Of a stretch of 64,000 nucleotides of DNA, positions 35,254-38,358 are shown piece by piece. How positions within the stretch are numbered: the stretch's first letter is position 1; each line of letters starts with the position of its first letter. The notes below the pieces were generated by a model. It saw nothing but the letters and a program-made list of their open reading frames with translations, had not been told where the DNA came from and ran no database searches. The DNA lies in contig NZ_KE384560.1 of the NCBI RefSeq assembly GCF_000426725.1, forward strand, positions 310,001 to 374,000, read 5' to 3'. Made by a program: the position numbers and the translations under genes. This DNA comes from Sporocytophaga myxococcoides DSM 11118 (GTDB lineage Bacteria; Bacteroidota; Bacteroidia; Cytophagales; Cytophagaceae).

Positions 35254-36732
35254 TCAAACCAATTGCTCAAGGATTCTCTTGAATGAAGTGGCTTTTCTTA
35301 TTTTCTTTCTTAACTCGCTGATAGGAACTCTCTCTTGCTCCATAGTATCACGATAACGAATAGTCACCATGTTATCATTCAGTGTATCATAATCTACTAC
35401 TATGCAGAAAGGTGTTCCTATTAAGTCCTGACGAGTGTATCTTTTTCCGATAGCATCTCTTTCTTCATAGATCACATTCATATCCATTCTAAGCTCTTTG
35501 AAGATTTCCTGGGCTTTCTCCGGTAGACCATCTTTTTTTACAAGAGGGAATATTGCTGCTTTCACAGGAGCTAATGCAGGATGCAGTTTCAGATAAACTC
35601 TTTCTTTCTGATTTTCGCCTTCGCCCACAGTTTCTTCTGTATATGCATTGCAAAGAACTGCCAGGAATGCTCTGTCGGCTCCGACTGAAGTTTCCACAAC
35701 ATATGGCACGTAGTTTTTATTCAGTTCATTGTCGAAGTATTGAAGCTTCTTCTTTGAAAATTTTTCATGACTCCCAAGGTCAAAGTCAGTTCTTGAATGG
35801 ATACCTTCAATTTCTTTAAATCCGAAAGGAAACTCATATTCGATATCTACAGCAGCATTAGCGTAGTGAGCAAGCTTCTCATGATTGTGGAACTTCAGCT
35901 TGCCTTCGGGTAAACCGATTGCTTTGTGCCATTTCAATCTAACTTGTTTCCACTCTTCATACCATTTCATCTCTTCGCCCGGACGAATGAAAAACTGCAT
36001 TTCCATTTGTTCGAATTCCCTCATACGGAAGGTAAACTGACGGGCAACTATTTCATTTCTGAAAGCTTTACCAATCTGAGCAATACCAAAAGGAATTTTC
36101 ATTCTTCCTGTTTTCTGAACGTTCAGGAAGTTTACAAATATACCCTGAGCGGTCTCAGGTCTTAGATAAATTGTACTTGAATCTTCTGCAACAGCACCAA
36201 CCTGAGTTGAAAACATAAGGTTGAACTGTCTTACTTCTGTCCAGTTAGATGTTCCTGAAACCGGACATTTTATTTTTTCAGCTATGATAAGCTCCTGCAC
36301 GCCTTTCAGATCATTCGCTTCAAGAAGACGAGCGAGTGATTTCACCAAAGCATCACCTTTGGCTTTATCTCCATTCTTTTCGTATTCCGCTGCTTTATCT
36401 TCAACAAGTACGTCGGCTCTATATCTCTTTTTGGAATCTTTGTTGTCGATCATCGGATCGCTGAAGCCATCCACGTGACCTGAAGCTTTCCAAGTGGTTG
36501 GGTGCATGAATATTGCAGCATCTATACCTACCACATTATCATTCATCTGAGTCATGGCTTTCCACCATGCAGCTTTGATGTTGTTTTTTAGTTCAACTCC
36601 GTTTTGTCCGTAATCATAAACAGCCTGAAGACCGTCATAGATTTCACTTGAAGGAAATACAAATCCGTATTCTTTCGCATGTGAAATGATATTTTTAAAG
36701 GTGTTTTCTATCGTCGCACTTACTTTTTCCAT
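35254..36732 (-). CDS. glyS: Glycyl-tRNA synthetase, homodimeric type
   Basis: 492 aa class II synthetase of the single-subunit (alpha2) GlyQS kind, not the alpha/beta type of E. coli. Motifs: FVFPSSEIYDGLQAVYDYGQ at the N-terminus, STIYLRPETAQGIFVNF with motif 2 in FRNEIVARQFTFRMREFEQM, HSRTDFDLGSHEKF, and VVETSVGADRAFLAVL of motif 3. The C-terminal anticodon-binding domain starts near APVKAAIFPL. Start is the ATG at 36732. It is followed by its own terminator. Upstream lies the 21-bp repeat array, so its promoter probably sits in 36733-36874. Confidence 0.96.
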   Translation of the reverse strand: MEKVSATIENTFKNIISHAKEYGFVFPSSEIYDGLQAVYDYGQNGVELKNNIKAAWWKAMTQMNDNVVGIDAAIFMHPTTWKASGHVDGFSDPMIDNKDSKKRYRADVLVEDKAAEYEKNGDKAKGDALVKSLARLLEANDLKGVQELIIAEKIKCPVSGTSNWTEVRQFNLMFSTQVGAVAEDSSTIYLRPETAQGIFVNFLNVQKTGRMKIPFGIAQIGKAFRNEIVARQFTFRMREFEQMEMQFFIRPGEEMKWYEEWKQVRLKWHKAIGLPEGKLKFHNHEKLAHYANAAVDIEYEFPFGFKEIEGIHSRTDFDLGSHEKFSKKKLQYFDNELNKNYVPYVVETSVGADRAFLAVLCNAYTEETVGEGENQKERVYLKLHPALAPVKAAIFPLVKKDGLPEKAQEIFKELRMDMNVIYEERDAIGKRYTRQDLIGTPFCIVVDYDTLNDNMVTIRYRDTMEQERVPISELRKKIRKATSFKRILEQLV

Positions 36733-36874
36733 AGTTGCAAAGATATGTAAATGATTTGTATAATAGGAAATCCGACTTTACAGATTTTTAAGTCGGACTT
36801 GATAAATAATCTCTAAATACTTTTTATCGGTAAGAAAAAGTCTCTTTGACAGTCAATGGAATGCTTCAAATTCC

Positions 36875-37145
36875 TCACAGAATATTCTTGGAATCCCACG
36901 GACTTTCGGTGGAGCTCCACGGGTTTTCTGTGGAGGCCCACGAAAGGTGCAGGGCTCCCCACAGAAGAGTCAGGAGTTTCCACGGATATTCGTATGGTCC
37001 CACGGACTTTCGGTGAGGCTCCACGGGTTTTCTGTGGGGACCCACGAAAGGTGCAGAGCTCCCCACAGAAGAGTCAGGAGTTCCCACGAATATCCTGATG
37101 AGCTCCACAGACTTGAGGTGGGCTTCCCCGAATTTCCTGTGGGAC
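36875..37145. repeat. Array of thirteen ~21-bp units in a five-unit higher-order repeat
   Basis: Units begin, with few exceptions, with CCAC and are 21 bp long (two are 20 bp). Unit starts: 36875, 36896, 36917, 36938, 36959, 36980, 37000, 37021, 37042, 37063, 37084, 37105, 37126. Neighbouring units differ, but the block of units 2-6 is repeated as units 7-11 about 104 bp later; the first four pairs differ at only 6 of 84 positions. Units 12-13 begin a third, degenerate block. GTGG often ends a unit next to the CCAC of the following one (for example GTGGAGCTCCAC at 36909-36920), so hairpins can form. It is GC-richer than its surroundings and lies between glyS (-) and hemH (+), that is, between two 5' ends. 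I see no credible gene: open frames exist only because 21 is a multiple of 3, and the 20-bp units shift them. Confidence 0.9.
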
Positions 37146-37323
37146 GGATTAGGAATACTCTTTGGAGTTCAATTTTCCTTATGGAGCTTTTGTGTGTCAT
37201 CAACCTGCTCCATTAAAAATCCTTTAAATCACTACAATCAAACACTTGACCGTAACTACTAATGAGTTAATTATCACTGGTATTTTTTTAATGCTTAATC
37301 CCAGTTAAATTTCCTGCTTTTAG

Positions 37324-37331
37324 TATTTTTG
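37324..37331 (+). promoter_or_regulatory. TAnnTTTG motif just before hemH
   Basis: TATTTTTG matches the Bacteroidota -7 consensus but ends only 4 nt before the hemH ATG. If real, the transcript would have almost no leader. No matching -33 element was seen. Confidence 0.25.
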
Positions 37332-37335
37332 CCGC

Positions 37336-38358
37336 ATGAATAAAGTAAAGAAAACAGCAGTTTTCCTAATTAATCTGGGAACTCCTGATAGTCCGTCAGT
37401 TCCAGATGTCAGAAAATATTTAAGGGAGTTTTTGATGGATAGAAGGGTAATTGATATTCCATTTCTTAACCGTTGGTTCCTGATTAATTTTATAATTGCT
37501 CCTTTCAGAGCGCCCAAATCTGCAAAAGTTTATAAAGAGTTATGGACAGCCGAAGGTTCACCTTTATTAACTTACGGTCTTGAGGTTCAAAAGCTTTTAC
37601 AAGCGAAGTTGGATGAAAATTTCCAGGTTTTTTTCGGTATGAGGTATCAAAACCCATCGATAGAAAAGGCTGTAAAAGAAATGGAAGGGAAGGGCTTTGA
37701 AAAGATTGTGATTTTGCCTCTTTTCCCTCAATATGCTAGCGCATCTACAGGTTCAGCCGTGGAAAAAGCAATGGAATACATCAATAAATGGGAAGTAATT
37801 CCGGAAATTAAAATCGTAGCAAATTTTCCTAATCATCCATTGTTCATTAAGGGCTTTGCTGAAATCGGAAGAAAATATCTGGAAAAGGATAAGTTTGACC
37901 ATGTCATTTTTACTTACCATGGACTTCCTGAAAGACAAATTAAAAAATCAGCAGTGCAGAGTTATTGTCAGCTGAACGATAAATGCTGCTCAAAATACCA
38001 TTCCAAAAATTATTACTGTTACAGGGCGCAATGCTATGAAACAACACGTCATCTGGTGAAGGAACTTGGTCTTGAAGAAGGGACTTACTCAGTTGCATTT
38101 CAATCAAGACTAGGGAAGACTCCATGGATCAAGCCATATACAGATGATCTTATAAAAGAGCTGGGAGCGAAAGGAGTAAAAAGGGTATTGGCATTTTCTC
38201 CTTCATTTGTCGCAGACTGTTTGGAAACTACTATTGAAGGTGGAGTCGAATACAGAGATATGTTTAAAGAACATGGTGGAGAACACTGGCAGTTGGTTGA
38301 AAGTCTCAACAATCATCCACTATGGATTGAATGTATGGAAGACCTGGTTCTGAATTAA
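37336..38358 (+). CDS. hemH: Ferrochelatase
   Basis: 340 aa. Inserts Fe2+ into protoporphyrin IX, the last step of protoheme synthesis (coproporphyrin-dependent variants exist). Motifs: VFLINLGTPDSPSVPDVRKY, LPLFPQYASASTGSA, the catalytic-His block FTYHGLPERQIKK, FQSRLGKTPWIKPYTDD and ADCLETTIEGGVEYRD. A Cys-rich segment CCSKYHSKNYYCYRAQCYET in the middle could help bind a metal. Single gene with its own terminator. Heme made here would serve peroxidases such as the DyP at 11.4 kb. Confidence 0.96.
   Translation: MNKVKKTAVFLINLGTPDSPSVPDVRKYLREFLMDRRVIDIPFLNRWFLINFIIAPFRAPKSAKVYKELWTAEGSPLLTYGLEVQKLLQAKLDENFQVFFGMRYQNPSIEKAVKEMEGKGFEKIVILPLFPQYASASTGSAVEKAMEYINKWEVIPEIKIVANFPNHPLFIKGFAEIGRKYLEKDKFDHVIFTYHGLPERQIKKSAVQSYCQLNDKCCSKYHSKNYYCYRAQCYETTRHLVKELGLEEGTYSVAFQSRLGKTPWIKPYTDDLIKELGAKGVKRVLAFSPSFVADCLETTIEGGVEYRDMFKEHGGEHWQLVESLNNHPLWIECMEDLVLN

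Follow-up and report, generated by a model that had tools for sequence, protein, structure and literature searches.

The array between glyS and hemH

The window analysed here, by which we mean the whole stretch of 64,000 nucleotides from contig NZ_KE384560.1 of Sporocytophaga myxococcoides DSM 11118, carries an array of short palindromic units in the gap between the genes for glycine--tRNA ligase and ferrochelatase. The features of the locus, in window coordinates, are the following.

35254..36732, minus strand: flanking gene glyS, glycine--tRNA ligase (NCBIfam)
36874..37145, no strand: whole array, 13 contiguous palindromic units with class I arms (CCCAC/GTGGG) (segmentation, lag statistics, TRF)
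36895..36998, no strand: first five-unit block, 104 bp (TRF, segmentation, lag statistics)
36909..36920, no strand: GTGGAGCTCCAC, the sole perfect 12-bp palindrome, across the junction of two units
36979..36998, no strand: the single 20-bp unit, which pulls the mean period below 21 bp (segmentation, spacing counts)
36999..37102, no strand: second five-unit block, 104 bp, with 12 differences from the first (block comparison)
37103..37145, no strand: last two units, which keep the unit grammar but are no block copy (23 of 44 bases differ)
37336..38358, plus strand: flanking gene hemH, ferrochelatase (NCBIfam)

With glyS on the minus strand and hemH on the plus strand, the array sits between two 5' ends, as the initial annotation of this DNA had described. 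The array it reported is real, lies where it was placed and exceeds chance by far, although several details needed correction. Segmentation yields twelve units of 21 bp and one of 20 bp, in agreement with the 13 units of 20-21 bp first counted, and the class consensus of these units is CCCACGGAA-N-TTCCGTGGG-NN. The motif CCAC, said to open nearly all units, is present in 11 of the 13, but at unit positions 2-5. Perfect palindromes had been described at unit edges; one is there, GTGGAGCTCCAC at 36909, and the array has no other of at least 12 bp. Palindromy belongs to the unit consensus. The G+C content is 0.57 in 36900-37099 and falls to 0.29-0.33 in the immediately flanking 100-bp windows, in line with the first remark that the array is GC-richer than its surroundings.

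The array matches itself at 0.743 for lag 104 and at 0.496 for lag 21, compared with about 0.25 in dinucleotide shuffles (15 and 9 sd above them, respectively), and the highest self-match in 200 shuffles over lags 10 to 129 was 0.38. TRF reports a 104-bp period with 1.9 copies at 36894-37093. The five-unit block of about 104 bp had been thought to recur 2.5 times; we count about two blocks, because 23 of the 44 bases in the presumed third half differ. The two blocks have 5 differences in their first 84 bp, where 6 had been counted, and 12 over the full 104 bp.

A family of arrays in the genus

A search of the host genome and its relatives, suggested with the original description, turned up 23 arrays of the same plan in the four examined genomes of the genus: nine in the host (G000) and five, eight and one in the related genomes G001, G002 and G003. 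Complete arrays have 7-18 units each, and two of the nine in the host are split by an insertion sequence (IS) over contig ends. Used as a query on the host genome, the window array (A1) retrieved two further arrays at E < 0.01, and its matches in other genomes, G002 excepted, are short (16-27 bp). Searches with profiles built from the units, of which R1 represents class I, R2 is broad and R3 represents class III, completed the list.

The scan with R1 and the scan with R3 both covered 241 genomes of the order, with the best 26 candidates per genome scored. In the 237 genomes outside the genus these scans, under strict filters, found no array, and weak arrays elsewhere may be missed because of the stricter filters and the restriction to the best 26 candidates. 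The only matches outside the genus at E 0.01 were single weak ones in G112 (R1) and G222 (R3), and neither turned out to be an array on inspection. The same holds for weak places in G011, G020 and G023, inspected in a closer look at 17 genomes with up to 150 candidates. In a 400-kb sample of G000 there was no further array; the top-scoring unit chain among its twenty 20-kb pieces reached 17.5, compared with 204 for the C12 array, the fifth of G001, which has 15 units by segmentation. A weak R3 match in that sample (L292) was not an array. The perfect unit CCCACGGAANTTCCGTGGG occurs in public collections in 24 stretches of genome_contigs and 5 of viral_contigs, none of them an array: they reach at most 5 half-sites per 300 bp, whereas nine class I arrays have 11-17 and A5 has 6. 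The window array gave no match to plasmids and phages. A generic phase statistic for array finding responded strongly to A1-A3, missed weaker arrays and was dropped.

Among the open-access matches listed, the literature holds no description of such arrays in the genus or the order, and to our knowledge satellite-like DNA is little known in bacteria. Within the genomes scanned, the window array is one member of a family of palindromic arrays, intergenic and non-coding, that is specific to the genus.

Unit plan, arm classes and order of units

Units across the family follow one plan, palindromic by consensus: a 5-bp arm, a 9-bp core GGA(A)-N-TTCC, a second 5-bp arm and a 2-bp linker. The core is common to the units and the arms are exchangeable. 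Class I arms read CCCAC (as in the window array), class II arms AGCAC, and class III arms AGCCT mixed with CTCCT/CTTCT. By eye, AGC-type and CTY-type units alternate in runs of about 2-6 in class II and III arrays.

The order of units was compared with 400 column shuffles in each of 13 arrays (p uncorrected throughout). Direct block repetition was found at p <= 0.02 in seven of the 13, at lag 5 in A1, A2 and C1, lag 9 in A6, lag 8 in D2, lag 6 in C2 and lag 1 in A3; the host array A2 (L002) has a 104-bp five-unit block of its own. Divergence of units followed by block duplication, the history proposed initially, fits the window array; the repeats of other arrays span 8 or 9 units. Mirrored unit order was found at p <= 0.015 in four of the 13 arrays (A2, C1, A6 and D2) and is probably a trace of array growth; the window array has none by the same shuffles (p=0.33).

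Spacing and the helical repeat

When shortening and lengthening were penalised equally, spacings in 11 arrays were 21 bp in 122 cases, 20 bp in 19, 22 bp in one and other values in seven, and 12 further stretches gave 130 of 21 bp, 17 of 20 bp and none of 22 bp. Slips of spacing thus number 36 to 20 bp and one to 22 bp. Averaged across 15 representatives, the spacing comes to 20.88 bp (sd of array means 0.05), which gives each half-unit 10.44 bp, close to the B-DNA helical repeat of 10.4-10.5 bp. Since units slip from 21 to 20 bp and almost never to 22 bp, the mean stays at about 20.9 bp, two turns of B-DNA, and the earlier statement that the period equals two helical turns holds for the family. 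At least one 20-bp spacing is present in 21 of the 23 stretches, the exceptions being L192 (18 units) and the short C19-end piece. The 20-bp units are no more evenly placed than by chance, A2 excepted, and some are common to related arrays by descent. An array can be described as a string of half-sites of about 10.4 bp in alternating orientation, two of which make one 19-bp palindrome, and this step places successive half-sites on one face of B-DNA.

Sequence constraint and folding

The one ortholog group with enough change to be testable comprises A4, B2 and C1 with the dispersed copy B3. In this group, 55 polarised substitutions cost 37.6 bits, compared with 79.1 (sd 14.5) expected (p=0.0034). 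The mean bits by branch are -0.41, -0.65 and -0.52, and -1.51 for A4 compared with -1.33 at random; taken by itself, the A4 branch (9 substitutions) gives no sign of constraint. Array identity between C1 and A4 is 82%, with 81% over 89 flank sites, and between A4 and B2 it is 94%, with 97% over 109 flank sites. The array thus changes at about the same rate as its flanks, yet its half-site consensus survives better than expected by chance. A neutral simulation gave 186 observed against 98 ± 13 expected, a contrast that is overstated because one living array served as the ancestor, and for this reason the claim of constraint is based on the polarised-substitution test.

The window array has a folding energy below that of dinucleotide shuffles (z -5.7 on both strands). 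Compared with column-shuffled arrays, 16 of 20 stretches fold better (z <= -2 on at least one strand), the others being A1, B1, D1 and L197; for A1, the window array, the difference is weak (z -1.9 and -1.0). C1 folds as one long hairpin. Covarying base pairs, a feature of structured RNAs, were found neither within units nor in the A4/B2/C1/B3 group: 71.5% of cells are paired between the arms of a unit compared with 73.2% after shuffling, and the RNAalifold covariation term of the group alignment is unfavourable (+1.12). Changed long-range pairs stay paired about as random substitution predicts, since none of 12 comparisons, whose power is low, lies more than 1.5 sd above expectation and nine lie slightly above it. 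Rfam gave no match for 36700-37400 of the window at E 1, nor did any of 20 array loci reach the gathering score. As the half-site consensus is kept and long-range pairs persist at only about the chance rate, the array sequence is probably read as double-stranded half-sites.

Genomic position and turnover

The arrays are intergenic wherever flanks were called. Both neighbours were callable, using simple ORF calls, at 16 arrays, and are divergent at A1, B1, B3, L193, L194 and L196, convergent at A2, A3, D2 and L195, and co-directional at A4, B2, A5, A6, D1 and C2.

Of the four genomes, G000 and G002 have an array in the glyS-hemH gap (A1 and B1), and G001 and G003 have none there. A1 and B1 cannot be aligned beyond the unit grammar; their local scores of 25 and 44 (forward and reverse) compare with up to 87 in other non-orthologous class I pairs, so that they are not shown to be one array. 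In the same two genomes, A4 and B2 are 94% identical. The A3 gap has no array in the other three species. Both sides of the A2 gap were found only in G002, where there is no array, and the stretches of this locus read in G001 and G003 have none either. Neither the A2 nor the A3 gap is a clean empty site, and the search for target site duplications found no such site at A1 either. Upstream of a gene that we take, by eye and from its context, to be mgtE, G002 is longer than G000 by 125 bp, which is exactly six units, with TAAGCAC at both junctions in G002 and a single TAAGCGC in G000; G001 and G003 are without this stretch. The D1 site fits a gain or loss of units.

B3 is a dispersed copy of the C1 type of array; the arrays agree at about 76% of 340 sites, and their flanks do not match (35%). 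The homologous upstream flanks of one paralogous gene family carry A4 of class I, L192 of class II, and L194 and L196 of class III, so that the arm class differs while the homologous position stays. A comparison of 561 flank pairs among 17 arrays found no shared leader or tail; only pairs upstream of one gene family score high (52-65), followed by a pair at 34, with a null maximum of 33.

The paralogous family downstream of arrays has an N-terminus like NNGYLPKADKEKAIWLKNF; examples are L031 550-1263 (minus strand), L239 1552-2256 (plus strand), L192 and L194. Two members were searched and gave no match in Pfam or NCBIfam.

Insertion sequences in arrays

The two split arrays of G000 are interrupted by an IS3-like element that entered the core of a unit. 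Its ends read TGTSTCGTCCT, and its first ORF carries HTH_Tnp_1 (Pfam, eight flanking proteins searched). The element lies at the arrays in these places.

L188 735-1056: IS3-like element
L189 536-848: IS3-like element
L190 1-350: IS3-like element
L191 654-745: IS3-like element

Judged against intact relatives, entry duplicated 3 bp, AGC in one case and GGT in the other. Contigs of G000 end inside the element at 4 of the 30 ends of its 15 large contigs, and these are the only ends with an array. Among 15 matches to the right end of the element in the four genomes, three abut an array, one more is an IS remnant beside an array and the rest do neither; by our estimate, the nine arrays of G000, at about 300 bp each, take up about 0.04% of its 6.34 Mb. 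Several other copies of this element lie beside AAGTC-N-GACTT palindromes (L274, L269 and L278), and for this reason the element may prefer palindromes in general. REPs are targets of IS3-family elements, according to the relevant passages of PMC1525189. The arrays matter for genome evolution and assembly as entry points of an IS, two of these entries being contig breaks of the draft.

Comparison with known systems

CRISPR arrays have periodic, partly palindromic repeats. Here the whole unit repeats with no spacers, so that the identical repeats and unique spacers of CRISPR are missing and its exclusion in the initial annotation stands. Tandem multi-operator and iteron arrays consist of repeated protein sites in helical phase. 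The present arrays share with them sites in helical register and the conservation of half-sites (in one ortholog group, p=0.0034), but are several per chromosome, are rapidly rewritten in sequence and have a binding that is putative.

REP/BIME sequences, as far as described in the pertinent parts of three sources (PMC2817692, PMC3733652, PMC1525189), likewise have intergenic palindromic units of 20-40 bp with neighbours in opposite orientation, are lineage-specific and are targets of IS3-family elements. Genomes usually hold more than 100 REPs in the account of PMC2817692, compared with 1-9 arrays here, and the array consensus is, by eye, without the GTAG or CGTC end tag given in PMC3733652. 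In contrast to REPs, the arrays are made of contiguous units locked at about 20.9 bp with exchangeable arms.

BrickBuilt belongs to Porphyromonas gingivalis, which, like the host of the array, we take to be one of the Bacteroidota. The portions of PMC4596501 that concern us describe it as a minisatellite-MITE of contiguous 23-nt tandem repeats without spacers, with 19 copies, always intergenic, that gain or lose whole units between strains; contiguous tandem repeats and changes in unit number are found in our arrays too. Our units differ in being palindromic and 20.9 bp long, the 17 arrays compared have no shared leader, tail or terminal inverted repeat, and two arrays are IS-split, which those portions report for no BrickBuilt copy. 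The anatomy of the arrays resembles a BIME or a multi-operator array, and we file them under neither REP/BIME nor BrickBuilt, since they lack the end tag and the copy number of REPs and the leader and tail of BrickBuilt.

Interpretation of the arrays

We give a probability of roughly 0.5 to the reading that these are helix-phased, multi-site protein-binding DNA arrays with satellite-like turnover, the binding being predicted from sequence. It is supported by the same plan in 23 arrays, their spacing, the retention of half-sites, the lack of covariation and the occurrence of all gene orientations. Weighing against it are a constraint test confined to one ortholog group, with an A4 branch that departs from the rest, 20-bp units that are unevenly placed outside A2, missing from two of the 23 stretches and partly shared by descent, and the nine of 12 pair comparisons that lie slightly above expectation. 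The half-site would be read as double-stranded DNA by a putative dimeric (helix-turn-helix-like) or architectural protein, which would bind in series along one face and may assemble, at about 7-18 dimers per array (about 150-380 bp), into a cooperative filament or scaffold. As in satellite DNA, the arrays would be rewritten by unequal exchange and by template switching from one palindrome to another, which would leave arms alike within an array and different between arrays. A bound array might shape local chromosome structure, insulate genes from each other or only titrate the protein. The initial annotation had offered a protein-binding array or a structured RNA among its options. The former appears to be the best of those options, considering helix phasing, retained half-sites and the irrelevance of transcription direction, and the latter is disfavoured.

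The better folding than column-shuffled sequence in 16 of 20 stretches is not explained by phasing alone and counts against the protein-binding reading. It would suit a selfish foldback satellite without host function, whose palindromes would grow in number and become mirrored through template switching and unequal exchange, with grammar and mirrored order as by-products of multiplication. Mirrored order in four and direct block repetition in seven of 13 arrays, the differing presence of arrays between species and the exact six-unit difference point the same way, and we regard this explanation as possible, if doubtful. It is opposed by the half-site consensus, kept better than under random substitution (p=0.0034), by spacings that shorten and do not lengthen, which slippage alone does not predict, and by the window array, which lacks mirrored order. 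A palindromic mobile element that is non-autonomous and depends on a transposase, in the way that RAYTs move REPs or IS transposases move MITEs, would account for the dispersed copy B3 with its unmatched flanks and agrees with the intergenic location of the arrays and the entry of an IS into them. We consider it unlikely, as flanks share no leader or tail, neither A2 nor A3 has a clean empty site, and in the one clean pair the difference is six units within a seed already present.

A transcribed, structured multi-hairpin RNA could explain the folding of the window array on both strands (z -5.7) and the long hairpin of C1. However, the two strands fold about equally, the arrays have no fixed orientation to genes, Rfam gave no match, no covariation was found within units or by RNAalifold, and pairs in the one ortholog group are kept at about the random rate, which makes this explanation highly improbable. 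A repeat coding for heptapeptides has still less to commend it and scarcely seems credible: 21 is a multiple of 3, and nine of the 23 stretches have at least one stop-free frame, among them the window array (plus strand), but 14 have none, the 20-bp units shift the frame, and A4 has no open frame whereas its orthologues B2 and C1 have one each. A conserved coding frame, one of the two findings that the initial annotation said would refute it, does not emerge from these stretches, and the other, a lack of similar arrays, is contradicted by those found in the host and in its three relatives.

A broader form of the protein-binding reading is that the arrays are a new chromosomal element, a satellite with one half-site per helical turn in alternating orientation, in which arms are rewritten while the grammar is kept, together with a predicted filament-forming protein. 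This we put forward as speculative and rather unlikely; if true, bacteria would have a counterpart of the fast turnover seen in eukaryotic satellites and the proteins that bind them. Across a genus, these arrays preserve the phase of B-DNA and a palindromic half-site while their letters are rewritten, which makes a reader protein, and its coevolution with arm classes, testable.

Other observations at array loci

The intergenic region of B3 is crowded by other short dispersed repeats (L035 1051-1115, 1165-1244 and 1708-1860), which have dozens of matches in G000 and G003. At the A3 locus (L003 1734-1774; gaps L151-L153), a palindromic simple repeat ACTTTCA/TGAAAGT is found in all four species. 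Beside array C2, a gene on the minus strand (L037 293-1087) encodes a single protein that combines a nucleotidyltransferase (Polbeta) domain with a HEPN domain, the two domains that characterise HEPN-MNT toxin-antitoxin systems.
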